From a virus, in the IMG/VR virus record IMGVR_UViG_3300036827_000361, positions 1-39,435 of that record: 39,435 bases of DNA; one strand, 5' to 3'. Made by a program: the position numbers and the translations under genes. The number at the start of each line of letters is the position of its first letter. The stretch's first letter is position 1. This document shows positions 1,911-39,435 of the stretch, piece after piece. The notes under the pieces were generated by a model. The model saw only the letters and a list, made by a program, of their open reading frames with translations. It was not told the DNA's origin and did not search any database.

Positions 1911-1954
1911 CGGGGCGTAGCGCAGCCTGGTAGCGCACCTGCCTTGGGCGCAGG
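1911..1954 (+). tRNA. 5' half of tRNA-Pro(TGG), interrupted
   Basis: The sequence from 1911 gives the CGGGGCG acceptor strand, the D-arm and an anticodon arm CCTGC-CTTGGGC-GCAGG with anticodon TGG. After about 1954 the match stops: no variable loop, T-arm or CGCCCCG acceptor partner follows. As written the gene cannot give a mature tRNA. The break sits next to an integrase gene, so it is best read as the chromosome/element junction. Normally integrases carry a 3' part that restores the tRNA; that is not seen here. Confidence 0.8.
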
Positions 1955-2438: not shown

Positions 2439-2452
2439 GGTGGAGAGATTTA

Positions 2453-15277: not shown

Positions 15278-15282
15278 GGAGT

Positions 15283-16638: not shown

Positions 16639-16639
16639 A

Positions 16640-16864
16640 TTATGTCATCGTGGCGAAATGCCACGCGTGATTAGTTGCATCGTAAAAATAAAGTTGTAAG
16701 GTGGAACCACTTTTAAGAAATTGAATCTGGTCGAGAGATGTATTTGGTACGCCGGTCGGTGCGCTTGAAACTGTTCGGAAGAGGCCGAAAACATTTTGTC
16801 CTCGGATTTGTTGCTGAAGATTGATTTCTGGAATTATAGGTTTGTGTTCAATTACTGCATCCAT
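16640..16864 (-). CDS. small virion-operon protein
   Basis: 74 residues, strand-rich (STLQLYFYDATNHAWHFATM). The start codon lies directly after the stop of the hub-like gene (TAAATG), so it is co-translated. A minor structural or fold-assisting protein is likely; no family recognised. Confidence 0.55.
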   Translation of the reverse strand: MDAVIEHKPIIPEINLQQQIRGQNVFGLFRTVSSAPTGVPNTSLDQIQFLKSGSTLQLYFYDATNHAWHFATMT

Positions 16865-18361
16865 TTAGTTGTTTTGATAATTATCGTCAAGTGCTGTGCC
16901 GTAAATAGAAATCCGCGAAATTGAGACGCCTCCGGTTGTTTCTATACTGACGTTCAAACTTTCAAAAGATGACTTTGCGCCTGCTGTCATTTTTCGGGTG
17001 AAGACTAATTCTCTGTGCGGGGCAGCTGAGTTAAAAGTCTTAGTGTCGCTAGTTGAAACAGGTGTATTGCCCTTATCTGTTTCAGCGTGGAAAGTAACTG
17101 TTTGGCCGGATGAGAGTGGTTGAGCCAAGACAACTTTTGCGTACTCAAATTTGTACGGTTGAGGAAGTTGGTAATCTAGGCTTTTGAAGCCGAGTTGAGA
17201 GTAAGTTAATGCGGAATTATTGACATAAATAGACGGTGTGCCGCTTTCAGCGTTCCAAAACTGTTCCCCGACCATTGAGAGGCAAATTTGTTTCCCGGCA
17301 CTAGGGCCGCCATTAGAGTAAGGTTGATAAAAAGCTTTTGGCTGGCCGGCAATCGGGTTCCCATAAGCGTAAATCGTACCCTGAAGAGCAACGGTCGAAC
17401 CGCCGTCAATCCAGTAAACTGAACCTCGGCCTTCAGTGACCTGATATGAGTTCATCGGGCGGGCCGGGAATGTGGTGGTTGAACCAAGGAAAGAACGAAT
17501 GAGGCTAGGTGGTGTGGCTGAGTTGCAGACGTAGAAGCCGTTGTAGCCAAAAAGATAAACTGCACCGTCAACAACACGTCCGGCAATCATGTATGAATCG
17601 CCGTGAATTTCGTAGATGACATCGGCAGTCGTGTTGACCATATCCCAGAAATAAATTCGGCACTTGTAATCTCCGACCACTCTGTTTGCTGACGCCTGTG
17701 CATTGTTGTCCGCGATTATTACAAGGTATCTGCCATCGTTGCACATATCTCGAACGACCCAATTAGTATCTATTGAGAACGTTACTGTATTACCTGAAGT
17801 CCCGGCTGAGTTTGTAATCTGGTCCACTCTGCCGCTGTTGCCGACATATAAATTCTTGTCAGCACCGATGCACATTGGAATCGTGTCCAGTGAAGATGAT
17901 TGTAAAAAGGATGTTTTAAGAGCAATGTCAGACCCGCTTGCTACCGGCAATGAGTTTGCGCGAATATCGGTTGTGCCAGCGCTTGCGGGAATATAGACGT
18001 ACATTCCTTGCCACATAATCGCGCCTAAAATTCCATTTGTCCTGGTTGTAATCTGTGCTGTTACATCGGTTACTGTGTAGGGCGAATCTTTTGTAATTTT
18101 ATAAAGTTTGGAATCTGAATGTGCGTAAATGAATCCGTTACCGCTGCCGTCATTCCAGCTTGAAAGAATTTTAGGAGTTGTGCTAATGCCTGAAGTTACT
18201 TGAGTTGCGGCGAGTGAAGGCTTGGCGATTCCGGGGTCATCGAAAATATCACAACCTAAAAGTTCTTGATAAAGACCGCCCCACGGATAACTCACCTTTG
18301 AGGATGTGCCATGAAGCCAGTCAGAGCCTTTTATTTCGATGATTTTCTGTGGTTTGGACAT
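16865..18361 (-). CDS. beta-rich tail hub/nozzle-like protein
   Basis: 498 residues built of repeated short strands with WQGMYVYIP, GADKNLYVGNSG, DGRYLVIIADN and VDGAVYLFGYNGFYV units, the rhythm of a beta-propeller. In P22-like phages a propeller protein (gp10) plugs the head-tail junction; position after the adaptor and tail-fibre genes supports such a role here. No direct sequence match is claimed. Confidence 0.55.
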   Translation of the reverse strand: MSKPQKIIEIKGSDWLHGTSSKVSYPWGGLYQELLGCDIFDDPGIAKPSLAATQVTSGISTTPKILSSWNDGSGNGFIYAHSDSKLYKITKDSPYTVTDVTAQITTRTNGILGAIMWQGMYVYIPASAGTTDIRANSLPVASGSDIALKTSFLQSSSLDTIPMCIGADKNLYVGNSGRVDQITNSAGTSGNTVTFSIDTNWVVRDMCNDGRYLVIIADNNAQASANRVVGDYKCRIYFWDMVNTTADVIYEIHGDSYMIAGRVVDGAVYLFGYNGFYVCNSATPPSLIRSFLGSTTTFPARPMNSYQVTEGRGSVYWIDGGSTVALQGTIYAYGNPIAGQPKAFYQPYSNGGPSAGKQICLSMVGEQFWNAESGTPSIYVNNSALTYSQLGFKSLDYQLPQPYKFEYAKVVLAQPLSSGQTVTFHAETDKGNTPVSTSDTKTFNSAAPHRELVFTRKMTAGAKSSFESLNVSIETTGGVSISRISIYGTALDDNYQNN

Positions 18362-18362
18362 T

Positions 18363-19496
18363 TTAGAAAATAAACATTCCTTGGTTTAAGAGAAATACCG
18401 AACGAGTCGCGGTTGATTTATTGGAGATAGCCCAGACAAGAGCCGCAAAAGCATCTGTAGCAGAGGTTGGAAGATGTGTTGTATTAGTGGTTGCGCTTGA
18501 CCACGCTGCGCCGTTCTTTGCCCAGTAAAAATCAATGCCAACGCCAGGAGTATATACGGCCATAAGGTCGAGCCAATCACCTGAAACAATGGTTGTTAGT
18601 GCAGAGGTCGCGGTTTCGGTTGTGCCGTTGCCGTTCGTGCCAAAGAGGGTGTAAACAGATGATGCTCCGACAATTTTGAATCCATACTGGCTCAGTGTGT
18701 AGACATTTCCTGTACCGCTAACGTCGCCATTTACAGTACCAACGCCAAAGAATGTGTCGAATGTTGTACCTGCAACATTTAGGTTTACGCGAACGCTGAA
18801 GCGAGAGGGTCGTGCAAAAAGATTATTTGAATTTCCGGCACCGCCGGTTGGTTGGTGATAAATTTGAGCGAAACTTGTTGCGGTTGAACCTGTGTCAATT
18901 TTTCCACCTTGGCCGGAAACAACAGTAGTTGCACCCGTACCACTTGCCGCAGTTCCGTAGTTAGTCGCGGATTCAAAAACAGATGGAAAATACATCTTAG
19001 GAATATCTGATACCAAGGAGCCGAATGTTCCATCGCCTTTTAAGACATCATTAGTATTTCCGCTGAGTTTTGGGAGAAAACCGTGTTTGCTTGATGAAGC
19101 GTTATTTGTTGTGATGTCAGTGAGCGCCAAAGCTGCTTCGGCTAACGTACCGCCGCCTGCTGCGTTCTGGTGATTGTGCTGGGCGTTGGTATGGTCTGCG
19201 ATTGTGGGAGTAGTGAGGGTTTTATTTGTAAGAGTCTGGCTGTCGGTGTCTCCGACAATGGTTCCTGCCGGGGCTGTTACAAGCGAAAGAACGCCAGCGA
19301 TAAGTTTTGCGATTCCATTACCAGAGGCTCTTTTAATTGTTTTGCCGCCGGTCCCATTGAAAACTGCAACTTCTGAATCAACTGAAGCGGCTGGGCCTTC
19401 GACTTTATCGGCATTAAGGTTTGCGAAGTTGCTATTGATGTCGTTACGGCTGGTTGCGCCGTCCTCATTTGAGGCGAGGGTTGCGATTGTAGACAT
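18363..19496 (-). CDS. tail fibre / receptor-binding protein
   Basis: 377 residues. The N-terminal part has DSQTLTNKTLTTPTIADHTN and AQHNHQNAAGGG, a repeat seen in many phage fibre shafts; the C-terminal half is strand-rich and Gly/Ser/Thr-rich (VSGTGNVYTLSQYGFKIVGA) like a globular binding head. It probably contacts the host surface. It overlaps the preceding small repeat-protein gene by one base. Confidence 0.75.
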   Translation of the reverse strand: MSTIATLASNEDGATSRNDINSNFANLNADKVEGPAASVDSEVAVFNGTGGKTIKRASGNGIAKLIAGVLSLVTAPAGTIVGDTDSQTLTNKTLTTPTIADHTNAQHNHQNAAGGGTLAEAALALTDITTNNASSSKHGFLPKLSGNTNDVLKGDGTFGSLVSDIPKMYFPSVFESATNYGTAASGTGATTVVSGQGGKIDTGSTATSFAQIYHQPTGGAGNSNNLFARPSRFSVRVNLNVAGTTFDTFFGVGTVNGDVSGTGNVYTLSQYGFKIVGASSVYTLFGTNGNGTTETATSALTTIVSGDWLDLMAVYTPGVGIDFYWAKNGAAWSSATTNTTHLPTSATDAFAALVWAISNKSTATRSVFLLNQGMFIF

Positions 19497-19681
19497 TAGT
19501 GTTTTGTTTGATTATTGAAAATCGAGTTTCCTGATTGCCAGGGCAAAGCTAATTCCCAAGGGAAGACATGAGACGACCAAAGGCTGAAAATGTTACGAGG
19601 CTGATTTGCGAACGTGGTCGAATGTTTCGTTTGATTATTTATGCTCGTCGCGCTCTTGGATTGATTTGCAAAAGTTGTCAT
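19496..19681 (-). CDS. 61-residue repeat protein (TTFANQ / NNQTKH units)
   Basis: The start overlaps the stop of the adaptor gene by ATGA. The product has two copies each of TTFANQ and NNQTKH, arranged as TTFANQS...INNQTKHS-TTFANQP...FNNQTKH, with a Trp-rich linker between. Short polar repeats of this type occur beside fibre genes and may form a beta-solenoid or be a fibre accessory. No family recognised. Confidence 0.6.
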   Translation of the reverse strand: MTTFANQSKSATSINNQTKHSTTFANQPRNIFSLWSSHVFPWELALPWQSGNSIFNNQTKH

Positions 19682-20397
19682 CGGGTATTCTCAACGTTAG
19701 CTCTCATGCGCTTTTTATCATCCCGATTTCTGCGGCCCATGAAATCTTTTATGTTTTGCTCGTCCTGAAGAATTAAAGAGTTGATACTGGTTAAACTGTC
19801 CATGTTGTGTTCGATAAGGTGAGGGAGTGAAGCAACTCGCGCCAGGTAGGGGTGAAAGAGAGACGGGATTCCGGGCTGTTTTGTTGTGTCGGTGTAGACG
19901 AACTTCGAGCCGTTGCGCTTAAATACAACTTTCAATCCACCGGTTGAGTTGTAATTCGGAATCGGGTCAAAGAAAATCGAGTTTGCGAATTTGTCGTATC
20001 GAGTTGGTACTCCTGTATTTCCGGTTGCAAGAGTCCAAAGTTTTGCTGCTCCGCGCTCGTTAATATCAACCTTGTCTAGTTCTTGCCAATTGCCGCTTGA
20101 ATCCTTAATCATCACTTTTTCCACGGTCAGAACGTCAGATGAAAAGGAATAATCCTGCTGGCCGGAAATAAGGTCGCCAACGCCAATTGGTAAATCGCTG
20201 TAATTGGTGTCGTCAAATTGCCACTGACTGTCATGAGTCAAAGCAATCATGTAAAAACGGTCGAGTGCCTGATTTATGCGGGCAGTAAAGTTCTTGAGCT
20301 GGGTCGTGTCGCCGGAAATTCCGGTAACTCCCATAAGACAAATGCGTTCGCATTCATTTATGAGTCCGTCAAAATTTGTTGTGTCGAGAAATTGCAT
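19678..20397 (-). CDS. head-tail adaptor (P22 gp4-like position)
   Basis: 239 residues. Helical N-terminus (LINECERICLMG, KNFTARINQALDRFYMIALT) and a strand-rich middle with QQDYSFSSDVLTVEKVMIKD, the layout of short-tailed phage adaptors below the portal. It lies after the capsid genes and before fibre and hub genes. An AGGAGGAATAAG site, partly inside a hairpin, lies upstream. Confidence 0.6.
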   Translation of the reverse strand: MQFLDTTNFDGLINECERICLMGVTGISGDTTQLKNFTARINQALDRFYMIALTHDSQWQFDDTNYSDLPIGVGDLISGQQDYSFSSDVLTVEKVMIKDSSGNWQELDKVDINERGAAKLWTLATGNTGVPTRYDKFANSIFFDPIPNYNSTGGLKVVFKRNGSKFVYTDTTKQPGIPSLFHPYLARVASLPHLIEHNMDSLTSINSLILQDEQNIKDFMGRRNRDDKKRMRANVENTR

Positions 20398-20412
20398 ATA
20401 ATTTACTTATTC

Positions 20413-20438
20413 CTCCTGCCCAGAGAACTGAGCAGGAG
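20413..20438 (-). promoter_or_regulatory. hairpin enclosing the adaptor ribosome site
   Basis: On the minus strand CTCCTGC and GCAGGAG form a 7-bp stem with a 12-nt loop. The 3' arm is part of GCAGGAGGAA, the only good Shine-Dalgarno site in the virion operon, so the hairpin can hide it. Confidence 0.5.
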
Positions 20439-20448
20439 AGAAAGCAAA

Positions 20449-20922
20449 CTATGAAGTTGCTACAGGTGTGGCGACTGTGCCGTTGCCCTGGATAATGCCT
20501 TGTAAACCCCACTGAGTGGAGTTCAAAGCGGTAACGCGAAGCCAAGTGCCTGCGAGACCGCCTGTGGTTGTGCCGTTCATTGAAACGGAAAGATGAGTTG
20601 ACCCGTTTGCTGTCCAAGCTGCAACAGCGTTGGAAGTGTCGGTATCAATATTCATCAAACCACCTAGCAAGAATTCAGTTCCGGCAGCAGTGATAACCTT
20701 AGCAGCGTTTGAAGTGATGGTTGTTGTGACGAAAAAGTCAAAATATGTTCCGGCTTTAGCGGCTGCGGGAAGGGTATAGACGATTCCTGCGGCCCGGTCA
20801 AACAACACAGCTGCCCCAGATTCATTTTCTGAGAGAGTGCGAGTTGCCCCTGCTCCAGAGATGATGTTTCTGCGGCCACCAACTTTGTCAAACTGCGGGT
20901 TAATGCCATTTGAGACTGCCAT
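20449..20922 (-). CDS. head decoration-like protein
   Basis: 157 residues, Gly/Ala/Thr-rich and strand-rich (AGTYFDFFVTTTITSNAAKV, LAGTWLRVTALNS), with no charge-rich helices. It lies directly after the major capsid gene, where phages keep capsid cement or head-fibre proteins. AATTAA stands 12 nt before its start. Identity is inferred from position and composition. Confidence 0.55.
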   Translation of the reverse strand: MAVSNGINPQFDKVGGRRNIISGAGATRTLSENESGAAVLFDRAAGIVYTLPAAAKAGTYFDFFVTTTITSNAAKVITAAGTEFLLGGLMNIDTDTSNAVAAWTANGSTHLSVSMNGTTTGGLAGTWLRVTALNSTQWGLQGIIQGNGTVATPVATS

Positions 20923-20946
20923 TGGATTGAGAAATTAATTGGTAAG

Positions 20947-21007
20947 TGAGGCGGGGAATAGGACTCCCGAAATCGGCGGGAGGTCGGAAGCCCAAGCCCC
21001 CGCCTCA
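20947..21007 (-). ncRNA. nested hairpin between capsid and decoration genes
   Basis: TGAGGCGGGG (20947-20956) and CCCCGCCTCA (20998-21007) form a perfect 10-bp stem; CTCCCG/CGGGAG (20964-20969, 20977-20982) forms an inner one. It fills the gap after the capsid stop. No T-run follows, so it is more likely an RNA-stability or partial-termination element that keeps capsid message high. Confidence 0.55.
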
Positions 21008-21013
21008 AGGAAA

Positions 21014-21868
21014 TTAGACTAAGGTAATGTCAACGACCAAAGTGGTCTTTGTGGTCCACAGCTTAAAGCCGATGTAACCATAGACAGAAACTTCTCTGCC
21101 TGTTTTGCCTGAAACCAATTTTTCGTCAACCTGGATACCGCGAGGTGCGGCGTAGGTTGCAACACCCTTAACGCCAAACACACGGTGGCCGTTGTTGGTG
21201 TAAGTGGTTGTTCCCAATGTTTCATCTGCGAATGTGCTTGAGCGAGTAACGTACACATCAACTCCCATGTAAGAAGTCATCATGCCGTTATTCAAGACCG
21301 CATCTGCAAATGAGAAACCACTGGCTGCACCGGCTTGAATCAAGCCAGGGACATCAGTATTTTCAAGAACCAAGAACAAACCTTTGTAAACATCTGAGTA
21401 ACCAGCAACTTGTGAAATCAGGTTTGCAAAGATGGTGTTGACGTTTGCTGCTGTGGTAAAGCCGCCGGCAGGAGTTGAATACGAACCTGTTGCGTCTTCA
21501 GTGAGGTTGTTCAGAACGAAGCGGTCGATTTGTTTTGCGACAGCGTAGTTCATTTCTTCGGTCCGGTCTGCGAACAAATCAAAGTTTGAAAGCAGAGACT
21601 CGAAGTCCTTGATGTGTTCAGCAACGATAAATTCATTGTTGACGGTCAAGGAGTCATCTGTGGTTGTCATGTCGGCAACGCTGTATGTACCTGCCAAAGC
21701 CTGAATGGTCACAGTTGGCTGTGAGCCATAAGGGTTCTGAATGGTTTTTGCATTGCTTCTGTCAACTTCACAGATTTTTTCGCAAATGAGAGCCTGTCTC
21801 AGTTGCTTTTCCAAGGTGGCCATCCGGTATTTGTCCCGGTAGGTCTTGGTTGAGATTGTATTTGCCAT
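21014..21868 (-). CDS. major capsid protein (HK97 fold, P22-like)
   Basis: 284 residues. Helical N-terminal arm (RMATLEKQLRQALICEKICE), long spine region with FIVAEHIKDFESLLSNFDLF and EEMNYAVAKQIDRFVLNNL, and a C-terminal strand-rich part with GVKGVATYAAPRGIQVDEK. This is the pattern of P22-type/HK97-fold coat proteins at the short end of their size range. Preceded by scaffold and followed by decoration genes, as expected for a capsid operon. Confidence 0.85.
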   Translation of the reverse strand: MANTISTKTYRDKYRMATLEKQLRQALICEKICEVDRSNAKTIQNPYGSQPTVTIQALAGTYSVADMTTTDDSLTVNNEFIVAEHIKDFESLLSNFDLFADRTEEMNYAVAKQIDRFVLNNLTEDATGSYSTPAGGFTTAANVNTIFANLISQVAGYSDVYKGLFLVLENTDVPGLIQAGAASGFSFADAVLNNGMMTSYMGVDVYVTRSSTFADETLGTTTYTNNGHRVFGVKGVATYAAPRGIQVDEKLVSGKTGREVSVYGYIGFKLWTTKTTLVVDITLV

Positions 21869-21917
21869 GTAGGGAAATAACTTTTAATGATTTTTCCCCA
21901 CCGATTAGGCCAAGGGG

Positions 21918-22508
21918 CTATTTGCCCCGTTTGGCGTCCTGTCGTGCCTGATATAGCCTCTGAATTTCAGCATCACCGTCTGGGACTTCACCCTTAGAGC
22001 GGGCTGTATTCAAAAGCATTTCATCAGATATTTTCCCGGTATTACGCCTTGTGGTCGTTATATTGGTTGCATCGGCCACTTTGCGGTTCTCGGCTTTCTC
22101 AGCCAGGACATTCTTTACCACGCTTGATTTGAGTGCTTCCGTAACAGTTATGCCTTTGAGTTTGGCGTAATCTGTAACTTCAGCAACATCTTCCTGCGGC
22201 ACTGCTGCCTGGAGGAGTGCGTAAAGGTCTGTCGGCGAGAGGGTACCGGATTGCTGTTGGGATTGCACGACCGGCTTTTCAGAGGTCTTGGCTTTCTTCT
22301 CAGCTTTCTCGGCGCGAATTTTGTAATTGTCTGCAAGCTGTTTTACCTTGTCGTATTCCGACTTGGCGACAACTTCGGCATTTTCTTCTTCGCTAGATTC
22401 CTCATGGGAAACGATAGTTTCCTGTTCGGTTTCTTGGTTTTCCGTATTAGACTCGGCAGTCTGTGAGGTTTGTGAGGTCTCCTCGATGACCTGTTCTTGT
22501 TCGTCCAT
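21918..22508 (-). CDS. scaffolding protein
   Basis: 196 residues, very acidic Gln/Glu-rich N-terminal half (EETSQTSQTAESNTENQETE), a helical middle (EYDKVKQLADNYKIRAEKAE) and a basic C-terminal helix-turn-helix-like end (RQDAKRGK) as in phage scaffolds whose basic tail binds the coat protein. It lies immediately upstream of the major capsid gene. Confidence 0.75.
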   Translation of the reverse strand: MDEQEQVIEETSQTSQTAESNTENQETEQETIVSHEESSEEENAEVVAKSEYDKVKQLADNYKIRAEKAEKKAKTSEKPVVQSQQQSGTLSPTDLYALLQAAVPQEDVAEVTDYAKLKGITVTEALKSSVVKNVLAEKAENRKVADATNITTTRRNTGKISDEMLLNTARSKGEVPDGDAEIQRLYQARQDAKRGK

Positions 22509-22523
22509 AGGATTGTTATTTAA

Positions 22524-22540
22524 GGTCTTAAAACAAGACC
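22524..22540 (-). promoter_or_regulatory. 6-bp hairpin in the scaffold leader
   Basis: GGTCTT and AAGACC with a 5-nt loop, followed by TTAAAT on the minus strand. It may cause partial termination or RNA processing between the 22549 and scaffold genes. Confidence 0.35.
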
Positions 22541-22548
22541 CTGTTTAA

Positions 22549-23103
22549 TTATTTAGTGGAATTCTTTGAGAGGCGTTCTTGCGTTTCTGCGACCGTCTCA
22601 TCTGTCATGCCAGCAAGGAATTTGATTTGCAAAAGCTGGCTTTCAACGTGATTGATATATGTATTGCGGGTCGTGAGCCAAACGTAGCTCTGGTCAATAT
22701 CGCCGGGAAGAGAGAACTGTTCAATGCCGAGAAAAGAGGATGGATTAGCGAGATTGTTTAAGCCCTGCTCAATTAACTTAATCAGTCTTTCTCGGGACTG
22801 CAAAAGCAAATGGGCCAGTTCCGGGGTCTTGTCGGCAATCTGTACTGTCATCCATAAGTCCAGCTGCTGCCCGAGTGGAGCATCGCCGTCAATTTCAGGC
22901 AAGAATATTTTTCTGATTACTTGCTGAAGCGCTACGTTATTTTTAATCAAATAGGAAAGGGTGCTGGATTCATCGGCAGTTATTGTGAGACCGAGCATCG
23001 CTCTGCGCATAGTCTTTAAAAGCGCATCATTTTCCGCAAAAGTGTTTTTTAACAGCGACATCTCGCTATCGGAGATGCGGCGTTCTTGTTTCTTTGTTTC
23101 CAT
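22549..23103 (-). CDS. hypothetical virion-assembly protein
   Basis: 184 residues, nearly all-helical (AHLLLQSRERLIKLIEQGLN), Leu-rich, no membrane segment. It lies between portal and scaffold genes and may be a portal- or head-associated protein. AATTAA lies 11 nt before its start, within the end of the preceding gene. No family recognised. Confidence 0.55.
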   Translation of the reverse strand: METKKQERRISDSEMSLLKNTFAENDALLKTMRRAMLGLTITADESSTLSYLIKNNVALQQVIRKIFLPEIDGDAPLGQQLDLWMTVQIADKTPELAHLLLQSRERLIKLIEQGLNNLANPSSFLGIEQFSLPGDIDQSYVWLTTRNTYINHVESQLLQIKFLAGMTDETVAETQERLSKNSTK

Positions 23104-23286
23104 TTATAGGGTGTTTAATTTTGCTTCGAGCGCTTCTTTTTTGAGTGCGTACTTCTCCGGGTTCTGCTTGGCGTATTTTTCGATGAATGCGCGGAACTCT
23201 GCTTTTTGCGGCGAGTCTTCGCTGACTTCCGGGGATACCGGGTCTTGTACGATGTCTTCATCTGAAGTGTTGGTTTTCTTTGGCAT
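23104..23286 (-). CDS. 60-residue acidic/basic protein
   Basis: MPKKTNTSDEDIVQDPVSPE is an acidic disordered half; a helical basic half (KYAKQNPEKYALKKEALEAK) follows. It starts 13 bp after the portal stop, with AATTAA 9 nt before the ATG, and its stop abuts the next start. Unknown function. Confidence 0.55.
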   Translation of the reverse strand: MPKKTNTSDEDIVQDPVSPEVSEDSPQKAEFRAFIEKYAKQNPEKYALKKEALEAKLNTL

Positions 23287-23299
23287 GTTTATCTGTTAA

Positions 23300-25261
23300 T
23301 TATTTTTGTGGAAGTTGCGGAGTTTGTTGTGGCTGTACTGGCTGCTGTTGAGCGCCTGGGCGTTGAGGTTGCTGCGGCGGTGGTGTCTGCTGTGGTTGTT
23401 GTCCAAGGTCTTGAGGTTGAAGTGTAATTCCGGCGCGTTGTGCTGCTTGGATTTGTCCTGCTGGCGGTAAATCTTTATAGTCCATGCCGATTGTTAAGCG
23501 TTCGGTCATTGGCGGCAGGAATGGCGAGGTAGGCGGCATCAACTCAACTGGAGAAACGACTCCGGTAGCTTCAAGGATTTTATTGAATACAAGTTTGGCA
23601 TTAGGATTGTTTAAGAGTGCTGGGTTGCTTGCGATATTGGTGAGAACGGTTGAAAGGGTCTGAAGAATTGTTGCCTTGTCACCTGTTTCATTTGTTACTT
23701 CGACATCTAAATCCCATTCCAAATCTTTAAAAATCTCTTTCCATGTTTTGCTTGGGATGTCTGATGGCTTAAAGAAGCGCTGATTGCCTTGGGTATTGAG
23801 GCCGTCTTGAACTGAAGATTGAAGCGCGGCTAAGTCTTGATTGCTTGCAATCTGGCCAGAGAGAATTGCTTTTTTCTTTTGGTTATTATCAATCTGAATC
23901 GCTTTGTTCTTAGTATACAGCGCGTCAATTTGGGTAATGTGGTAATCGTCAAGCGTTGCGCTGATTTCTTCGGTAGTATCCATTTGCTTTTTAAGAAATG
24001 GAATGATGAACCGGCGCATCATCTCTTCAACGTGTATTCCTTTGTTCTCGGTCATCACTTCAAAAAGGGAATGAGACTCTTGATTCAGGATTGCAACTTG
24101 TCTAAACGGAGTTCCTGATGGCATCGTCTGCCCAGAGATTGCGTCTGGTGTTGATGTGATGTCTTTAGCGAGTGCTTGCCACTGTGCGGAAAAGTTTTGA
24201 AGTGATGTAATGTCGTGGCTGTTGTTCTGAAGTTGTATTAGGGGTTTGCCGTCTGCGTGAATCAGGATGTCGCCGTTTTCGATTGCGGCCAGGGCGTTCT
24301 GCCCGACAAAATTAGGGTCTGCGGTCTGGAAAATAAGCTTTGAAGCCAGGTCGAGCTGGTCTTTAATCGCTTTGGCCGAATGATTCACCATCCATTGCGC
24401 TTCAAATAAATGTTCTACAGCGCCGATTGCTTGGGTGCGTCCGTCCTCCCTGATAAGGTGCGTAATCATGTAAGGGTCTTGGGCTTCGCGGCCAGAGATT
24501 AGAGAAAAGTCGTCATAACCGTCTTTCTTTTCGTTTTCAAGAAATGAGATGACGTGCATCTGTTGAACATATTTCTTATCATCTTTCTCTTTTTCAGTAA
24601 TGAAGCAGAGCGGGAGTTCGCCGTGAACTTCGTAAAGTTCGATATAGTCGGCGCGAGTGTCCTGATTCTGCTTATCGAGGGTCTTGCGAGTGCCGACCGC
24701 GCTAATCAGTTTTTCAACCATTTCTTGGTCATATCCCTTGCGCATCCGCAATTGTGCCGGTGTAAGGTAAAGTTTTTCAATCTTGGGGGCTGCATCGAAG
24801 TCAACCGGGTCCGCTATCAAACGATTCCAAGGCACAATCATCCAGTGCAGTTCACCTTTTTGTTCCACGAACTTGAGGACGGTTGAACCATAACGAGCCA
24901 GCGAACGGCCCCAATCTTTCAAGAAAGAGCCAAAGTTTTCCCGGCGCATCCACTGTTGCAAATGTACGGTCGCAAGGAAAGCCGGGAAATAATCTGATTG
25001 CTTGGTCGCCTTAACTCGGATGTCTTTTCGGTCCAGGTCTGTAGCGCGATACCAAATGTTTACAGCTGCGGTGACAATGTTAAAAAAAGGCTTCTCGCGT
25101 CCAAGTGAATCGGTCTCGCCAGAAATATGCTTGCTGTTTAAGTAAGCGTCAATTTTTTCAATATTGTCGTACTGGTTGAAGTGGACATAGCGGGAAATGG
25201 TAGTGTTCCCGGCAATGTAGTTCTGTTCCTGTTTTCTAACGAGGTCAAAAATCGTTTGCAT
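23300..25261 (-). CDS. portal protein
   Basis: 653 residues, the largest gene. Strand/helix alternation in the first 350 residues (wing and stem), a long helix with AKAIKDQLDLASKLIFQTA, and a Gln/Pro-rich C-terminal tail (QQPQQTPPPQQPQRPGAQQQ), as in portal rings of podoviruses. It forms the dodecameric channel for DNA entry. Located between terminase and capsid genes in the canonical order. Confidence 0.8.
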   Translation of the reverse strand: MQTIFDLVRKQEQNYIAGNTTISRYVHFNQYDNIEKIDAYLNSKHISGETDSLGREKPFFNIVTAAVNIWYRATDLDRKDIRVKATKQSDYFPAFLATVHLQQWMRRENFGSFLKDWGRSLARYGSTVLKFVEQKGELHWMIVPWNRLIADPVDFDAAPKIEKLYLTPAQLRMRKGYDQEMVEKLISAVGTRKTLDKQNQDTRADYIELYEVHGELPLCFITEKEKDDKKYVQQMHVISFLENEKKDGYDDFSLISGREAQDPYMITHLIREDGRTQAIGAVEHLFEAQWMVNHSAKAIKDQLDLASKLIFQTADPNFVGQNALAAIENGDILIHADGKPLIQLQNNSHDITSLQNFSAQWQALAKDITSTPDAISGQTMPSGTPFRQVAILNQESHSLFEVMTENKGIHVEEMMRRFIIPFLKKQMDTTEEISATLDDYHITQIDALYTKNKAIQIDNNQKKKAILSGQIASNQDLAALQSSVQDGLNTQGNQRFFKPSDIPSKTWKEIFKDLEWDLDVEVTNETGDKATILQTLSTVLTNIASNPALLNNPNAKLVFNKILEATGVVSPVELMPPTSPFLPPMTERLTIGMDYKDLPPAGQIQAAQRAGITLQPQDLGQQPQQTPPPQQPQRPGAQQQPVQPQQTPQLPQK

Positions 25262-25269
25262 TTAAGCGT

Positions 25270-25542
25270 TTAAATAGTGTTTGGAGACCAAAGAATGGTA
25301 ATGTCTGCTGTACCGCCGATTGTGGCAAAGAGACCTGTATAAAAGTCAATTGGCGCTGGGAAAAGCTGAACGCTTGAACCTGTTGGAAAGGTAAAGGTGT
25401 TCATGATTACAGTATTTGCCGCAGTTAAGCTGTCCCACAATTTCAATGTGCCGCTGGTATGCGAGTTGACGATAAAGCCGTTAACCTGTCCGGCGCCTGC
25501 TTGAACCTGAACGGACGCAGCGGTGTTTTTATATTTAGCCAT
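25270..25542 (-). CDS. small structural protein between terminase and portal
   Basis: 90 residues, strand-rich (GFIVNSHTSGTLKLWDSLTA) and Thr/Ser/Gly-rich. Its start overlaps the stop of the terminase gene by one base and has AATTAA 12 nt upstream. Possibly a head-joining or decoration protein; no family recognised. Confidence 0.55.
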   Translation of the reverse strand: MAKYKNTAASVQVQAGAGQVNGFIVNSHTSGTLKLWDSLTAANTVIMNTFTFPTGSSVQLFPAPIDFYTGLFATIGGTADITILWSPNTI

Positions 25543-26993
25543 TATTTTGTTGAGTTAATTGATTGATTTGCTCTTGTGAGCGAAAAATGTTGTAACTGTT
25601 GATTGACCACATGCGAAGTATTTGGGTCTTCGTTGGTCGCATCACGCTTTAGTTCAAACCAAGCGCGGAAAATGATTTGGTCGCCAATGTCGGGTGAGCG
25701 TCCCAGGTCTCCTTTCACTTCGTCCTTGGGCTTGATTGCCAGCTTTCCGTCTGAGTCCACGTCCTTATGGCGCAAGAGTGCAGTTAGTTCTTCAATAATC
25801 TGTTCGCGGTACTCTGGGACTTTGAACGCTATCTTGTGTTCGTTTATCAGCTCCGCAAGTTTGAAAGCGCACTGAGTTTTTAAGTTTCTAAAATTTGTTT
25901 TCGGGTAAAGCGGCGAGTCTATCTTTTGTACTTTTCCGCGTATCTGTGTTCTGGTTGGAAGCGGTGTTGAGTTGGCAACGAATCCCCGGACTCCCGGCAG
26001 GCCGTCTACCACTCCCCCGCCTACGCCGTCCTCATCAATGATGATGTTCGAATAAGGGATTTGGTTGATTGCTGCAAAGTCCCTGGCTTGACGTTTCGTT
26101 TCTTCGATGTCCTGCTTGGCTCTCTGCTCAATTCTTACGAGTTCTAAGCCTTCCCAGAAGCCGAATACAGTTGTGTCTTTGCCCTTGCGCGCCACGTCTA
26201 CAGTCAAATATTTCTGATTGTCTTTGACGATTGTGTTTGTAAAAGCGTCTGACAGGGCATCGTAGGACACAAGCGCGTCCAGGTCTTCGTCGTAATCCCA
26301 ATTGCCAAGAAATAAACGCTGCCGGCGAACTTTGTCTTTTTCATTTGAAAGTGTGGCGACGTAATCAGCCGGGAGATAGGTGTTGTCAGTAGCAAGAGCT
26401 TGGACGAATTTGCGGCTTGGCGGTAAGAGATTCTGCTTCCACGGTTGTATGAAGTCGCGTTTCATCCAACCTTTTTTCGGGTTAGCGGTAATCAGTAACT
26501 TCTTTTTGAGTTTGTACTCATCGTTTTTCCATCGTCCGATTGAAAGCCAGAGGTTTGCCTTGGCTGCTTCCACGACTTCGCCGCCCTCTTCAATCCAGCC
26601 GCGAGTGTTTTGCATGGAACCAAAGCGTTCGTAAAGCGGGTCCTGCGGAAGATATTTACAAGAAATGAAGTGTACAAGTGAGCCGTTATAAAGTTTCCAA
26701 AAGTTATCCTGGCCGTTAAACGTGGCGTATTCGTTTATGTCGAGCTGCCAGTTTTTAAAGACTTCGTGAATCGTTGGAATGGTGTATTTACGGAGGTCGT
26801 TTAACTCTTGCCGCGCTATAAAGTAATGCGTTTCGGGATAAATAAGTGCATCGCCAAAAATGAGAGAAGCACCTAAGTAACTCTTGCCCCCAGCTTTGCC
26901 GCCGCCGAAAAGAAGTTCTTCTGTTTCGTCATCTATCCAGTATTGAGCGGCTTCGTACTGCTTAGGATTTGTTGTCTGGAACTGGATTTCCAT
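25542..26993 (-). CDS. terL: terminase large subunit
   Basis: 483 residues. ATPase part: Walker A-like FGGGKAGGKS (29-38) and Walker B RGWIEEGGE; nuclease part: TVDVARKGKDTT, IIIDEDGVGGGV and RSPDIGDQI supply the acidic metal ligands. It cuts concatemers and drives DNA into the head. It overlaps the small subunit gene by 32 bases. The spacing of motifs fits P22/Sf6-like terminases. Confidence 0.92.
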   Translation of the reverse strand: MEIQFQTTNPKQYEAAQYWIDDETEELLFGGGKAGGKSYLGASLIFGDALIYPETHYFIARQELNDLRKYTIPTIHEVFKNWQLDINEYATFNGQDNFWKLYNGSLVHFISCKYLPQDPLYERFGSMQNTRGWIEEGGEVVEAAKANLWLSIGRWKNDEYKLKKKLLITANPKKGWMKRDFIQPWKQNLLPPSRKFVQALATDNTYLPADYVATLSNEKDKVRRQRLFLGNWDYDEDLDALVSYDALSDAFTNTIVKDNQKYLTVDVARKGKDTTVFGFWEGLELVRIEQRAKQDIEETKRQARDFAAINQIPYSNIIIDEDGVGGGVVDGLPGVRGFVANSTPLPTRTQIRGKVQKIDSPLYPKTNFRNLKTQCAFKLAELINEHKIAFKVPEYREQIIEELTALLRHKDVDSDGKLAIKPKDEVKGDLGRSPDIGDQIIFRAWFELKRDATNEDPNTSHVVNQQLQHFSLTRANQSINSTK

Positions 26994-27309
26994 TCGTGCT
27001 TGTTGAAATGGTTTGGCCGCTGGCTAAAGAAATTGTCATGCCGGTAATCTGCTCAAATTTGATTGGCTGGCCGTCTTTTCCGGTGAGTTCAACGCCTTGG
27101 CTAGCTTTGCCGAAAATACGGTCGAGAAGTTCTCGGGTCGCGTAGGTGTCGCCGTGTTTGGCGTTGTGAATCAGGGCGTCGATAATCGGCCCCCATTCCT
27201 CGGCGGCGCGTTCAATAAGCGCCTTTTTCATTTCTTGGGCGAGAAGTGTGTGGCCTGCGATTGTTCCCTTGGGCCTTCCGGCACCTGGGCGTTTGCCGCC
27301 ATTTGGCAT
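26962..27309 (-). CDS. terS: terminase small subunit
   Basis: 115 residues beginning MPNGGKRPGAGRPKGTIAGH, the GRP-KG opening typical of phage small terminases and related DNA-binding proteins; then a helical core (KKALIERAAEEWGPIIDALI) and a flexible tail. It recognises packaging DNA and hands it to the large subunit. First gene of the leftward virion operon. Confidence 0.8.
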   Translation of the reverse strand: MPNGGKRPGAGRPKGTIAGHTLLAQEMKKALIERAAEEWGPIIDALIHNAKHGDTYATRELLDRIFGKASQGVELTGKDGQPIKFEQITGMTISLASGQTISTSTNGNPVPDNKS

Positions 27310-30381: not shown

Positions 30382-31392
30382 ATGTCAGACCCCTATCAAG
30401 AGGTCAGAAGCATACCACTTCGAGATGTTCTCTCGATGCTTGGAATTCCACTTAACCAATTTAAGAAGCGGGCTGGGAAAAAAGAATGGTACGGGCCTTG
30501 CATCTTTCACACTGCCAAGAAAAACAAAACTTCGTTCAGTTTCACCGATGAAAAATTCAACTGCTTCTCTTGCGGGGAGCATGGTTCGGGAAGTATTGAC
30601 CTTGTAATGAAGCTCAAGAAGATTGGGTTTCAGGAAGCGGTTAAATTCCTAGGAGGAACCAGACAAGAACACGCTGCGGAAGTCGTTTCACCAGCCAAAA
30701 AGGACACAGTAAGAAACAACGAATGTGAAAAGGTTTTCGAGAATAAGCCATATAACGGGGTTTACGAGAAGCATTATGTGCCCTCGGAGTGGTTAAAGAA
30801 TCGCGGTCTAACGGAAGAAACGCTCAAGCTCTTTGGTGTCGGACAATATTTCAACCCCTCCCGCAAGAGCCTGTACTCGAACAAGATTCTCTTTCCCGTC
30901 AGGCGTTTCAAGGACGGTGTAAAAACCGCATACTTGGCCCGCACGATTGAAGAGAACTCGGCTGACCCAAAGTACATTTTCCCCAAAGGCTTTCATAAGC
31001 AGTTAGAAGTGTTCGGGGCGTGGCAGATTAAGCAGCTCGCTCAAGAAGCCGGCGCTTCAAACGCTTCGGGTGAACGTGCTTCGGGTTTAACTCTACCTCT
31101 TCAGGTTGGATATGTTGTTGAGTCGCCGCTTTGCGTGATGCGCTATTGGCAGATGGGCTTGTATGCTGTGAGTCCTTTCGGGGCCTTCCTCTCTTCCGAG
31201 CAGGTTGAGATAATCCGGCATCTGTTTCGCGGGATTTTATTTCTACCAGACCGGGATAAAAGTCAGAAGGTAGCGGATACGATTCAACTGGCGGCACGCC
31301 ATTTATGGATAAAGTCTCCCGAACTTCCTGCGGGGATTGATGACCCGGAAAAGTTAAATCTTGAGCAGATTCATGCTCTATTGAAGTCTTAG
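30382..31392 (+). CDS. CHC2 zinc-finger / TOPRIM DNA primase
   Basis: 336 residues. Zinc finger C40, H43, C61, C64 (GPCIFH ... FNCFSCG); middle domain with KILFPVRRFKDG; TOPRIM residues E247 (VVESPLC) and D290/D292 (LPDRDKS). It would make RNA primers for replication. It is shorter than cellular DnaG and lacks a helicase domain; no helicase is in the window. GGAGG precedes the ATG by about 8 nt. The 3' 365 bp overlap a convergent nuclease frame. Confidence 0.88.
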   Translation: MSDPYQEVRSIPLRDVLSMLGIPLNQFKKRAGKKEWYGPCIFHTAKKNKTSFSFTDEKFNCFSCGEHGSGSIDLVMKLKKIGFQEAVKFLGGTRQEHAAEVVSPAKKDTVRNNECEKVFENKPYNGVYEKHYVPSEWLKNRGLTEETLKLFGVGQYFNPSRKSLYSNKILFPVRRFKDGVKTAYLARTIEENSADPKYIFPKGFHKQLEVFGAWQIKQLAQEAGASNASGERASGLTLPLQVGYVVESPLCVMRYWQMGLYAVSPFGAFLSSEQVEIIRHLFRGILFLPDRDKSQKVADTIQLAARHLWIKSPELPAGIDDPEKLNLEQIHALLKS

Positions 31393-34751: not shown

Positions 34752-34789
34752 AAATTTGTTGTTTAATTATTACCAATGCTTATATATGC

Positions 34790-35678
34790 AGTATGGCAGT
34801 TCCATATATTCATGCAAATGCAGAAAAACGGCTTATCTAAGCGGTCAAATGAAAAGTTGTCCACATTCTGGCGAAGCGTAAGAACGAAGTGTCTGCGATT
34901 TGAAACGCCTCAAAAACCGGGAATCTGAAACCAAGAACAGCGGGGCTACCCTCCTCCCAATCCCTCGGCCTCTTCTTCGTCCCGGTTCTTACTTTTAAGA
35001 GTTAGCTTTGGGAATCTGGATGTACTGACCAATGGGGAATCCAATCTCTCAAAGTCTAATCACTTAAAAACCGGCGAGGAACGAGCCGTAGGGGGGAAAG
35101 GGGGCAGCGTTGCCCCCTGATGTGTTCTGTTTCTTTTTGAGGCGTGGAAAAGAGCGGGGAGCGGAAGCGAAGTGGAATAAAAAATTAACCCGCGAAAATA
35201 GCCTTTCGGTCTCTTTGCACCAAGCCCCCTGGGCCACCCAATATCAAGAGCGACAAGCGACCAAACCAACCCCTCGAAACAAACCTGTTTCACAACAAAC
35301 AAAGAACCAGATTACCGAGCGCCAGCGAGGTTGTTCGTTAAAATGAGCGAAAGCGAATCGGCCTGCGAAGCGCACGCCTCCAATCCCGCAAGAGCATTGC
35401 AAGGGCCAGAGGAAATTAGTGAGAGCAAACGGAGTGCGGCTAGGCACGGAGTGAGCGAGATTGCCCCGCGCGCGTAAGCAAAGCCACCCGACAGATTCCC
35501 CCGTCCAGGGGGCGTAAGTCCAAGCGAATGTGCAGGAAATCGGGAGGGTGGCTTTGCTTGTTAAAGCAGCCGGGACAATAGCAAGTTTGGCTTGTCAAAG
35601 CCAAAAGCCCGGACAACGCCGTAAGGCGCACTCTATAAACCACTTATATAGAATTTAGAACTCTGTTTAGAACAGCGT
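34790..35678. other. 889-bp gene-free folded region
   Basis: No frame has a convincing start and composition. Inverted repeats include AACCGGGA/TCCCGGTT (34915-34922, 34980-34987), GGGGGCA-GCGT-TGCCCCC (35100-35117) and the cluster 35476-35628. A DnaA-like TTGTCCACA lies near 34857. Between 35320 and 35460 short AGCGA words recur. The region precedes the methyltransferase and follows the replication-relaxation gene, a suitable place for an origin of replication or transfer. Confidence 0.5.
35476..35628 (+). ncRNA. three-hairpin RNA or origin-like repeat cluster
   Basis: AAGCAAAGCCACCC (35476-35489) and GGGTGGCTTTGCTT (35546-35559) form a perfect 14-bp stem with CCCCC/GGGGG inside; TTTGGCTT/AAGCCAAA (35586-35605) sits inside CCGGG/CCCGG; CGCC-GTAA-GGCG (35617-35628) has a GNRA loop only when read on the plus strand, which suggests a plus-strand RNA. 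It lies 51 bp from the end of the replication-relaxation gene, so an oriT or sso role is also possible. Confidence 0.5.
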
Positions 35679-36599
35679 TTAGAAGTCTTTTAAGGACAAA
35701 GAGGCATTCTGCGCCGGGTCATACCAGACCTTGCCGAATGGGTCGCCCAAGACCTCATTATGTATCTCGCCGGGGGTGTGGTCTTTGTCGCCGGTAATGT
35801 CCCTGTGCCGCGCTAAAAGGAATGTAACTTTTTCGCTATGGTGGGAGTCGAATTGGGCCAGCAGGCCGGCATACTTTTCAAAGAGTTCTTCAGTGCCTTC
35901 CGGGTCATACGTCCCCATGCGCCAGTCCTCGATTGTGAACAGGACGGTAAAGGGCTTGTACCCTGAATCTCTGAAGTGTTTGAGGTAGCGTTCAATCTTG
36001 TAGTTAATCGAATCCTGATAATAAGATTTACCGACTTTACCGGCTGTCTCAGGACTCAAAATCGGGTGATTACCGCGCTCCACTTCAAGGAACATTTCGC
36101 GTCCAAAAAGCTTTAGTCTGGCATCGTATTTGACGGTCATCGCGACATCATTTCCCCGGTCGCGGTCCCAATATTCCAAGAGAGGTTTTTCGTCTGAATA
36201 GCGGTGAGGGAACAGGGCGCAGTAAACGTCAGCGACGGCAAGCTCGTGAGCGAGATTTGCGATTCGAGACTCGCTCTCGTTCGGTTTGATTTGGCGCTTT
36301 CTGAGGTCAATATCGACCCAAATATCTGAGTCGTTATTCCTGGCCTTCAAACACTTCCAAAACCCTGACTCGTTCTCATGGCTCTTCAGCATCTTGTGAA
36401 CGGTCATGTACGAACGAAGCAGGAACACTTGGCGCTTTAGATTTGGTTGGTATGTTAAGACCAGGCCCTTTAGGTTTTCCGGGCGAAGTTTTGACATCTG
36501 AATTGCCGTCATTGGGCCGTTCAGTTTTAACGCTCTGAGGAGGATGGACTTCAGGTCTTTCAACTCTGCTCCTAGATTGTTGAGGTTTGAATCGAGCAT
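35679..36599 (-). CDS. replication-relaxation family protein
   Basis: 306 residues. N-terminal winged-helix-like part with LKLNGPMTAIQMSKLRPENL, then LAHELAVADVYCALFPH, then WDRDRGNDVAMTVKYDARLK and FGREMFLEVERGNHPI, which resemble the core of replication-relaxation proteins (PF13814) found on conjugative elements. The D...E-x-E part has the look of a nuclease core. The first 75 codons overlap the end of the ATPase gene by 224 bases in another frame. Confidence 0.65.
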   Translation of the reverse strand: MLDSNLNNLGAELKDLKSILLRALKLNGPMTAIQMSKLRPENLKGLVLTYQPNLKRQVFLLRSYMTVHKMLKSHENESGFWKCLKARNNDSDIWVDIDLRKRQIKPNESESRIANLAHELAVADVYCALFPHRYSDEKPLLEYWDRDRGNDVAMTVKYDARLKLFGREMFLEVERGNHPILSPETAGKVGKSYYQDSINYKIERYLKHFRDSGYKPFTVLFTIEDWRMGTYDPEGTEELFEKYAGLLAQFDSHHSEKVTFLLARHRDITGDKDHTPGEIHNEVLGDPFGKVWYDPAQNASLSLKDF

Positions 36600-37980
36600 T
36601 TATTTCTTCGAGTACCGCTTCCGGGTGGTGATACCACGGCTGGCGGTACAGCTTACTAATGAAATCGTTTAAAACGTCTGGGGATATTTCAACATCTGGC
36701 ACGTCTGGGATTTTGATTGTTACAGGGTCTTCTTTATTTACCTTGACGACTGCATGTTGTTTTTTGAGGGACATGAGTGCATAGCGGGTAGCCTCCGAAT
36801 TGAGCTGGCCGCCATACATCATTGAAATCATTTTCTTTTGGTCGTTCGGGTCTTTTGTATTGAAGAGGACTTTTGTTTTTGTGCTGCGGTAAATGCTCGA
36901 TAAAACTTGAGAGTCTCCGATTTGGTCAAATCCTTGATGTGCAAGCGTAACTCGTAAGCCGCTCTTCCGCTTTTTATCGAGGAGATATGCCAATTTGGGG
37001 GTCGCATAGTCTCCAACTTCATCGATGTAGAGGTAATAAACACCTTTCCATCCGTGTTCACGTAAACGGTGAATTGCATGTGTTATTTCGTTAATGATTA
37101 CTGTGCCAATTAAACGCTGATGCTCCTGGCCGAAAATGCCCTGTGGGTCGAGGTTCAAAAGAATCAGCCAACCATCGGTTATTAACTTTTGAAAATCAAT
37201 CGTGTCCTTGCCGCCGAAAATGAGTTTCATTGTGTCTTCAAGAAACGGCTCAAGCCGGCGAATTGTGGAAGCAAACTCGTTTAAATAAAAGTTTCGGGTT
37301 CTAAAAACTTCTTCAAGCGTAATGCGATAGCGGTCTGCCGGATGAAGCTTGTTGAGCATCTCCATTCTGCGGTTGGTATAAATCGGGCTGCTGTGGTCTG
37401 TGAAATACAGAGATTCATTTAAGGTGTAGCCGCCCTTATGAAGCGTGTAGATAACAGCCGGAAAATATTTGTTGATTTTGGCTGTACCCTCATGGCTCTT
37501 GTCGCCCCAAAGCGTTCTTTCCACGTCCATCATGTCAGCGATTACAGCTGAGGCCGGCGCTCCTTCGTGAAGAGGGTTAATGCAAGGTACGACTGAAAAG
37601 TGTCCGTAACGGTGATGCGGGTCTATCAAACACACTTTCTCAAACCCGATTTTGGCGCAATACTTGAGAATCTTGTAAGCGGTATCACCGTTATCTGAGG
37701 GGTCAAGAAGGCAGGCTCCATAGCCGCGCTGAATGTCTTGCCTGATGAGATGTTCAAGGAATTTGGATTTACCCTCGCCTGGGCTGCCGAGAATGTGAAT
37801 GTGATTTTCCCGGTCTTCTTCAGTAAGCCACTCCATACCCTCCTGCGATACTCCCAAAGGGCGTAGGGGGTGCTTGGAAATAAGTTGTTTGTCGAGTCGC
37901 CTTTGAACGTCATCCAGGTTTGGGAACCTGATGTCATCCAAATTTTTACCCGTTAATCTCCGGAACAGCCGCTTTTCCAA
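36376..37980 (-). CDS. TraG/VirD4/HerA-like DNA-transfer ATPase
   Basis: 534 residues. Walker A GSPGEGKS (65-72), Walker B VYYLYIDEVGD (about 314-324), and LAHQGFDQIG (346-355) as sensor motif. DNA-pumping ATPases of conjugation and HerA/FtsK type share these. The usual N-terminal membrane helices are missing, but the upstream gene encodes a membrane protein. The C-terminal 60 residues are Pro/Lys-rich. TTG start with AGAGG upstream; it overlaps the preceding gene by 35 bases. Confidence 0.8.
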   Translation of the reverse strand: MEKRLFRRLTGKNLDDIRFPNLDDVQRRLDKQLISKHPLRPLGVSQEGMEWLTEEDRENHIHILGSPGEGKSKFLEHLIRQDIQRGYGACLLDPSDNGDTAYKILKYCAKIGFEKVCLIDPHHRYGHFSVVPCINPLHEGAPASAVIADMMDVERTLWGDKSHEGTAKINKYFPAVIYTLHKGGYTLNESLYFTDHSSPIYTNRRMEMLNKLHPADRYRITLEEVFRTRNFYLNEFASTIRRLEPFLEDTMKLIFGGKDTIDFQKLITDGWLILLNLDPQGIFGQEHQRLIGTVIINEITHAIHRLREHGWKGVYYLYIDEVGDYATPKLAYLLDKKRKSGLRVTLAHQGFDQIGDSQVLSSIYRSTKTKVLFNTKDPNDQKKMISMMYGGQLNSEATRYALMSLKKQHAVVKVNKEDPVTIKIPDVPDVEISPDVLNDFISKLYRQPWYHHPEAVLEEINARFKPQQSRSRVERPEVHPPQSVKTERPNDGNSDVKTSPGKPKGPGLNIPTKSKAPSVPASFVHDRSQDAEEP

Positions 37981-38614
37981 TGTAAGCCTCTAACTGCAAT
38001 TGCAAAATAGCGATGTTATTTTCAATGTCTTGAATCTGGGCCTGTTTGACTGTCTCAGATATTTTCGCGTTTCTTACCTTTTCCAATTCTTGACGCAGTT
38101 TGTAAAGGTGGTCTCGAATTACACTTGCAAGTTGAAAATTGCGGGCGGAAACAATTATGTCGGCATCTACCGTTGCTGCGATTCCATACTTTTTAACTTC
38201 CAGCTCACCTTCTAGCTCTAAAACTTTTCTTCTCGCTGCGGAATAATCAGTCGGGTTTACACCTGCGGCGGTCGCCAAAGTCAGGAGCTCATTTTCGTTT
38301 TCGAGAGTTCGGTTTGCTTTCTCAATCTTAGCGCGGGAAATCATTTCTTCCGTAACTGCCTCATGATGTACCGCCGCAAGCGCTGCCATATTCTTTGCCG
38401 CCACTAAATTTTCAGCAGCAGTCTTACCAAAAACTCTAGCGTATAACCTAGAGAACCAGAGAGAGATTGGGCTGGCGTTTGGGTCGGTGTTTGTGAAGCG
38501 CGGGAGTTGGCTTGAAAGATGGCTTTGCGCTGGAATCGGTTTACGGACAAAGAGAAAAAACGCGATTGCGCCGAGGAACAACAGACCGCCGACAATGAAG
38601 AAAAAAGTTGTCAT
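37946..38614 (-). CDS. membrane-anchored coiled-coil protein
   Basis: 222 residues. One N-terminal membrane segment (FFFIVGGLLFLGAIAFFLFV) and a long helical body (IEKANRTLENENELLTLATA; RQELEKVRNAKISETVKQAQ). The start overlaps the preceding stop (TAATG). It may serve as membrane partner for the soluble ATPase. No family recognised. Confidence 0.65.
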   Translation of the reverse strand: MTTFFFIVGGLLFLGAIAFFLFVRKPIPAQSHLSSQLPRFTNTDPNASPISLWFSRLYARVFGKTAAENLVAAKNMAALAAVHHEAVTEEMISRAKIEKANRTLENENELLTLATAAGVNPTDYSAARRKVLELEGELEVKKYGIAATVDADIIVSARNFQLASVIRDHLYKLRQELEKVRNAKISETVKQAQIQDIENNIAILQLQLEAYIGKAAVPEING

Positions 38615-39354
38615 TACATCACCACGTGAATTGGGGGAATGTCATATCCAAACAAGTAACCGAAGCTTATAAAATGAATATCCAGAGATGAAGCATTGTG
38701 GTCGATGTTCTCAAATAAGTATGTCGGATAGACAGTCTCATGAGGTTCGAGTCTGTATACATCAGGACCAATCCCGGTAACGTAAGATAATCTGCCGTCA
38801 GGATTGCCGTTTAACAATCGGTAACGTCGTCCATTTGAGTCGATAACATTTGTCATGTTTCCCTCGCCACTCCCAGCGGTAATTTTCATTAGGCCAATAC
38901 CCTGCTGCGAATTCATCGAGCCATCAACCTTAAATGTTATGGCCGTCATTCCATTAACTTCGCGAATCTGGGAAACACTCACTTGCAGCAAGCCTTGAAT
39001 ATTTAACTTTGTGCTTGAAGAGAAAGGAATGTCTTGTATCTTTGGTTGCTCTATTATTCTTTTTTGCGGCTGAGGAGCCGGGAGGCGCTGGGTTGTCGCA
39101 GCGCTGGCAGTCTGAACCGGATGTGCGATTGTATGTTTAGGCTTTCGCTGAGTCTGTGGGACTGGAGCCGGCTGGACTGGCTGAGGAGATTGCGGAGTCT
39201 CACTTGCGACAGGCTTGGGTTTATCTCCAAGTGAGTGCAGGCCAAGACCAATAAAGATGATGGCTAGAACGAATAGTCCAACGCCGATTTCGGCAGAGTA
39301 TTTTCTTGCCCAATGGATATTAGCTTGGGTGTTACCTTCTAACAGTGGCGGCAT
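38614..39354 (-). CDS. single-pass membrane protein with extracytoplasmic beta domain
   Basis: 246 residues from ATG 39354 (MPPLLEGNTQANIHWARKY); the frame is open to the window edge, so a longer form is possible. Membrane segment (IGVGLFVLAIIFIGLGLH), Pro/Gln-rich stalk (PQSPQPVQPAPVPQ), then a strand-rich domain (VNGMTAITFKVDG ... YLFENIDHN). The shape recalls periplasmic proteins of secretion or conjugation systems, but I cannot assign a family. Confidence 0.6.
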   Translation of the reverse strand: MPPLLEGNTQANIHWARKYSAEIGVGLFVLAIIFIGLGLHSLGDKPKPVASETPQSPQPVQPAPVPQTQRKPKHTIAHPVQTASAATTQRLPAPQPQKRIIEQPKIQDIPFSSSTKLNIQGLLQVSVSQIREVNGMTAITFKVDGSMNSQQGIGLMKITAGSGEGNMTNVIDSNGRRYRLLNGNPDGRLSYVTGIGPDVYRLEPHETVYPTYLFENIDHNASSLDIHFISFGYLFGYDIPPIHVVM

Positions 39355-39435
39355 ACTTTTGCCGCGAATCGTATCATAGTTTTGAATCCCTGATACAGCG
39401 AAAAACGTCCAAAGAGTGCATACCTGTGTTATCAT

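Follow-up and report, generated by a model that had tools for sequence, protein, structure and literature searches.

A possible mobilization-type module with a VirD4/TrwB-like ATPase and a Replic_Relax protein in a temperate tailed phage lineage

We analyzed a 39,435-nt stretch of DNA from an uncultured virus, IMG/VR virus record IMGVR_UViG_3300036827_000361 (the window, by which we mean the whole stretch), whose right end carries a block of genes that includes a VirD4/TrwB-like ATPase gene and a gene for a Replic_Relax (PF13814) protein. The reading that we favor, with a probability of roughly 45%, is that this block is a mobilization-type relaxase/coupling module of a temperate phage lineage, located between the packaging genes and one attachment end. 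Judged from its sequence, the window is a temperate tailed phage integrated in a bacterial chromosome, as TerL, a capsid gene, an integrase gene and a host junction are all present.

The block is an operon of four open genes on the minus strand (39435-35679) that encode, in this order, a membrane protein, a membrane helix/coiled-coil protein, the ATPase and the Replic_Relax protein, with neighbors that overlap or abut. This is the gene set and order proposed in the initial annotation of this DNA, and each of the two membrane proteins indeed has one predicted membrane helix. The ATPase and Replic_Relax genes also occur near phage packaging genes in four further IMG/VR records, whose ATPases are 43-51% identical, and the gene order of the block is conserved together with its overlaps in all five genomes. 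Scanning with the conserved core of the ATPase found one carrier, G027, and an alignment scan added three others (G028, in which the stretch read ends in TerL, G029 and G030). Scans with the ATPase as a single protein gave chance matches only (L002/L003, 24% over a short stretch).

Synteny between G027 (40.8 kb) and the window extends from the integrase to the ATPase, and the two ATPases are 50% identical. The order in G027 is ATPase, Replic_Relax, opposite-strand primase, membrane protein and TerS, and its DUF932-type, lysozyme-like, SSB and integrase genes are in the order of the window. In G029 the block is flanked by packaging genes on one side and by an intact tRNA-Leu gene on the other, beyond which lies a host-like gene, probably that for trigger factor; because the tRNA and this gene lie outside the block, its outer side is host and its inner side is phage. 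The synteny in G027 and the phage/host edge at the tRNA in G029 support the earlier placement of the block in the same phage element as the head genes, and the pair is near packaging genes in all four other records. No attachment site that would separate the block from the phage was found at 34750-35700, nor was a right attachment site detectable in the window. The 3-mer composition of the block is indistinguishable from that of the phage (distance 1.19, compared with 1.38 +/- 0.23 for internal phage segments).

The ATPase scored 31.1 bits against TrwB_AAD_bind (PF10412, cut-off 20.5) and fell below the cut-offs for TraG-D_C (18.7 bits), FtsK (13.3 versus 24) and HerA/DUF87 (13.3 versus 23.2). 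The Walker A (GSPGEGKS) and Walker B (YLYIDE) motifs are located in stretches conserved across the five genomes. A Foldseek search with the predicted structure (mean pLDDT 61) ranked TrwB (1e9s, 1.4e-13) ahead of HerA and VirB4, and a profile of the five ATPases matched DotL and TrwB in the PDB. Type IV coupling proteins outscored terminase, FtsK and HerA profiles, and the ATPase was therefore not assigned to a phage packaging or host protein family, as had been considered at the outset. None of the five ATPases has a membrane helix of its own, and in most of the genomes a separate upstream gene supplies one. We therefore describe the protein as VirD4/TrwB-like and not as a full-length VirD4. 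The helix/coiled-coil protein, which has counterparts at the same place in the relatives, may serve the ATPase as a separate membrane anchor.

PF13814 matched all five homologues, with 4/5 records exceeding the cut-off, and the clear signal across homologues supports the Replic_Relax assignment despite a weak score in the window. The replication-relaxation-like protein of the initial annotation is thereby supported via its homologues. The published classification places PF13814 among MOBC relaxases (PMC5357655), so the candidate for the relaxase, which had been suggested as a separate protein to look for, is the PF13814 protein. Comparison of the homologues showed that D159 and E172 are invariant and that position 174 is acidic, and an N-terminal helix-turn-helix was matched in one of five members (HTH_24, 2.9e-6). 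MOBC relaxases are related to PD-(D/E)XK nucleases and restriction endonucleases, and TraX of pAD1 has an N-terminal winged helix (PMC12857230).

About 1 kb between the Replic_Relax gene and the next gene contains no convincing genes, and 35.0-35.65 kb is non-coding and GC-rich. Within it a 157-nt stretch (35452-35608) has a DNA fold z-score of -6.3 relative to shuffles. Related sequence is located downstream of Replic_Relax in G027 and G028 as well, and across these three sequences, from which the structure itself was derived, 12 of 33 pairs show compensatory change, a level that exceeds slid controls and that 0 of 500 shuffles reach. A model of this element, run against 32 sources, matched only the three genomes used to build it, and no Rfam family matched anywhere in the window at E <= 1. 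A pattern search for the element returned four contigs, which were rejected as chance matches. The element is a candidate for an origin of transfer (oriT), a nicking or replication origin, or a small RNA.

VirB4 (PF03135) was absent from all five records, which may be incomplete, whereas a Caulobacter control was positive. Without VirB4 the block would at most serve mobilization with the help of another element's secretion system, or be a module for replication/translocation derived from a plasmid. The initial annotation had described conjugation-type genes and a hybrid able to move both in virions and by transfer; the transfer-type character of the block holds and such a hybrid is possible, but the word conjugative is too strong given the missing VirB4, and similar Replic_Relax/ATPase pairs were already known in Bacillus phages. 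MOBC relaxases are found in plasmids and integrative and mobilizable elements (IMEs) that encode a VirD4 protein of their own, and the two proteins form a known mobilization pair (PMC5704250; for CloDF13, PMC11389934), and the fit of the window to this pattern argues for mobilization. The adjacency of type IV coupling protein and Replic_Relax genes on an Embleya plasmid also counts in its favor. Mobilization could proceed as follows. The PF13814 protein, with a predicted DNA-binding N-terminus and a nuclease-like C-terminus, would bind the neighboring non-coding DNA and nick it, probably within or close to the structured element. With the helix/coiled-coil protein, encoded by its own gene, as a tether to the membrane, the ATPase would take up the nicked DNA and pump it. 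Given that no VirB4 was found, the most likely use would be mobilization of the excised circle through the secretion channel of a helper element.

Several observations weigh against this interpretation. The window protein scored only 20.7-21.3 bits against PF13814, under the curated cut-off of 25.3, and the structure model of the relaxase candidate is of low confidence and matched no nuclease and nothing else credible. VirD4 proteins usually have N-terminal membrane helices, and the ATPase has none. Neither G029 nor G030 yielded a match to the structured element, so these members either do without it or carry a different version. For the comparable pairs of Bacillus phages, the existing annotation is that of replication proteins. 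Finally, the analysis shows the genes with their family matches, the overlaps in the operon, its place in the phage and a conserved structure, and nicking, the nick site, membrane anchoring, mobilization and the helper are all steps that we infer. We consider it less likely than not that the scenario holds in full, namely that a temperate tailed phage lineage, apparently outside the Firmicutes, spreads in virions and also as a conjugatively mobilized circle by means of its own MOBC-type relaxase, a membrane-anchored coupling ATPase and a structured oriT. If true, some integrated tailed phages would keep two dispersal routes, blurring the distinction between phage and mobilizable element.

A tentative alternative that we take seriously is a plasmid-derived replication/segregation module acting within the phage cycle. 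Here the Replic_Relax protein would initiate or resolve replication from an origin close by, and the ATPase would move phage DNA at the membrane (during entry, segregation or packaging delivery) with no cell-to-cell transfer. In that case the virus may have recruited plasmid components for replicating its own DNA. Replic_Relax genes are present in 57 Bacillus, Geobacillus and Staphylococcus phages, which are the carriers of relatives of Pony gp27, and most among those listed adjoin or overlap an FtsK-like gene. Phage Replic_Relax proteins are annotated as replication initiation proteins, the authors of the Pony study propose an aid to DNA injection, and the block is in the early region, as is the primase. 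Plasmid-like genes gp11-18 have also been described in the Tyrovirus paper (PMC9703825). However, the window ATPase is TrwB-like and not FtsK-like, and the link between PF13814 and replication is largely a matter of naming. Furthermore, the ATPase was absent from 26 capsid-related records searched, and the block from eight capsid-related phages re-searched with a profile that detects all five carriers. Phages with the same capsid but no block indicate that the block is dispensable for their virion cycle, and we regard it as an accessory module that travels with the early/integration region.

An anti-phage defense cassette, with the ATPase and a nuclease-like protein as attachment-end cargo comparable to HerA-nuclease defense pairs, is improbable. 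Such cargo would suit a block that is accessory and located at the phage/host edge in G029, and the block did match the Mad8 defense model (1.4e-14). We rejected this match as non-specific, because Mad8 also matches plasmid coupling proteins, including that of CloDF13. No defense model matched the Replic_Relax proteins tested, and two membrane proteins plus a covarying element would be unusual for HerA-nuclease-type pairs. That the block is not part of the prophage but a mobile element of its own, or host DNA, adjoining it, an alternative raised in the initial annotation, is very improbable: it would account for the lack of a visible right attachment site, the GC-rich non-coding stretch and the capsid relatives that lack the block, but not for a pair beside packaging genes in five records, the ATPase-to-integrase synteny in G027, the outer tRNA-Leu and host-like gene in G029 or the phage-like composition.

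Table 1. Features of the window discussed in the text.
Feature	Coordinates	Strand	Basis
Replic_Relax (PF13814) protein, MOBC-type relaxase candidate	35679..36599	-	PF13814 in homologues
VirD4/TrwB-type ATPase without own membrane helix, TTG start	36376..37980	-	PF10412, Walker motifs, model
Membrane helix plus charged, coiled-coil-like region	37946..38614	-	1 predicted helix; coiled coil by inspection
Single-helix membrane protein, proline-rich linker, cut by record end	38614..39435	-	1 predicted helix
Structured non-coding element, downstream of relaxase candidate	35452..35608	-	Fold z-score, covariation
Phage structural and packaging genes (TerS, TerL, portal, scaffold, capsid, adaptor, tail-side proteins)	13946..27309	-	Profiles and order in relatives
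tRNA-Pro(TGG)-like gene, 5' half, left phage/host junction (attL)	1911..1954	+	tRNA model
Tyrosine integrase	2411..3295	+	PF00589 1.7e-27; 36% identical homologue in G027, beside tRNA-Thr
CHC2 zinc-finger primase, strand opposite to ATPase block	30382..31392	+	PF01807 2.9e-10; homologues at same relative place in G027, G028

In the head and packaging module, TerL matched a PHROG at 1e-24 and the major capsid protein at 1e-11, and the adaptor is SU10-type with a PF24175 score exactly at the cut-off. The portal and scaffold gave no convincing profile match and occupy positions conserved in relatives. The full podovirus head module claimed earlier therefore stands by matches for TerL, capsid and adaptor and by conserved order only for portal and scaffold; the label podovirus-like is plausible, not proven. 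TerL (25542-26993) has 50 related contigs in IMG/VR (38-71% identical), a phage group with no close representative in the annotated phage collection, and a scan of genomes with TerL found none. These relatives have capsid genes in common with the window and an almost wholly variable early region. In G004, one of those without the block, TerL and portal are neighbors only when the record ends are joined, suggesting that this record is a near-complete circle. In G027 (L084, 9151-12379) the early genes and TerS are as in the window and TerL and portal are of another type, which represents a module exchange between TerS and TerL.

The left 1.9 kb of the window looks like host DNA, and the host may be acidobacterial. 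Positions 10-42 of the tRNA model align to 1920-1954 with 17.8 bits (under the gathering threshold), the Pro identity being assigned by inspection, and an HNH gene and then the integrase gene follow. No tRNA 3' half or matching att repeat was found rightward within the window, so the right junction is beyond the record or unrecognizable. A 55-bp inverted repeat (28132-28186 and 34811-34865, 84% identical) contains the DnaA-box-like TTGTCCACA, and its right copy extends phage-type sequence to at least 34865. A short DNA methyltransferase fragment, perhaps a remnant, is present at 34203-34682 (part of the PHROG 799 profile). The primase gene has a 365-bp antiparallel overlap with an exonuclease-like gene (31028-32137, minus strand), and similar primase-antisense frames are found in G027 and G028. 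The record end at 39435 coincides exactly with the ATG of the last gene, and the ATPase is within about 2 kb of a record end in all five carriers, perhaps through attachment-site assembly breaks or trimming at gene borders.

Phage ATPase/Replic_Relax pairs are already known, and in sequence comparisons no close relative of the VirD4/TrwB-type pair described here was found in the annotated phage collection. The Bacillus pageviruses Pony and Page also have adjacent, overlapping ATPase and PF13814 genes, and Pony, a podophage, has about 40 kb of DNA. Unlike Pony, whose ATPase matches FtsK_SpoIIIE, the window has a TrwB/VirD4 ATPase, is integrated at a tRNA and has a structured element next to the relaxase candidate. 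The proposed reading, if true, would also make it possible to test what the Replic_Relax/ATPase pairs do in the dozens of Bacillus phages in culture, for which the current functions are guesses. The Bacillus Tyroviruses, compared by description only, are likewise temperate phages with a plasmid-like pair, gp17 (type IV secretion protein) and gp18 (replication-relaxation), for which the authors infer a plasmid origin (PMC9703825). Mobilization through a helper channel, with a VirD4 protein of their own and a MOBC relaxase, is also the presumed route of CloDF13 and some streptococcal IMEs. The likeness of the CloDF13-type module and streptococcal IMEs to the window is one of gene content: a VirD4-family ATPase and a PF13814-type protein in one element, no VirB4 of its own found in the window and, as in many IMEs, a tyrosine integrase. 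Unlike in those elements, the module of the window is phage-borne with capsid genes, its ATPase is without its own helix, extra membrane proteins are present and mobilization is inferred. P1-like phage-plasmids, in which a relaxase or oriT is rare (PMC10879196), resemble the window in combining phage and plasmid functions in one genome, although the element in the window is integrated.
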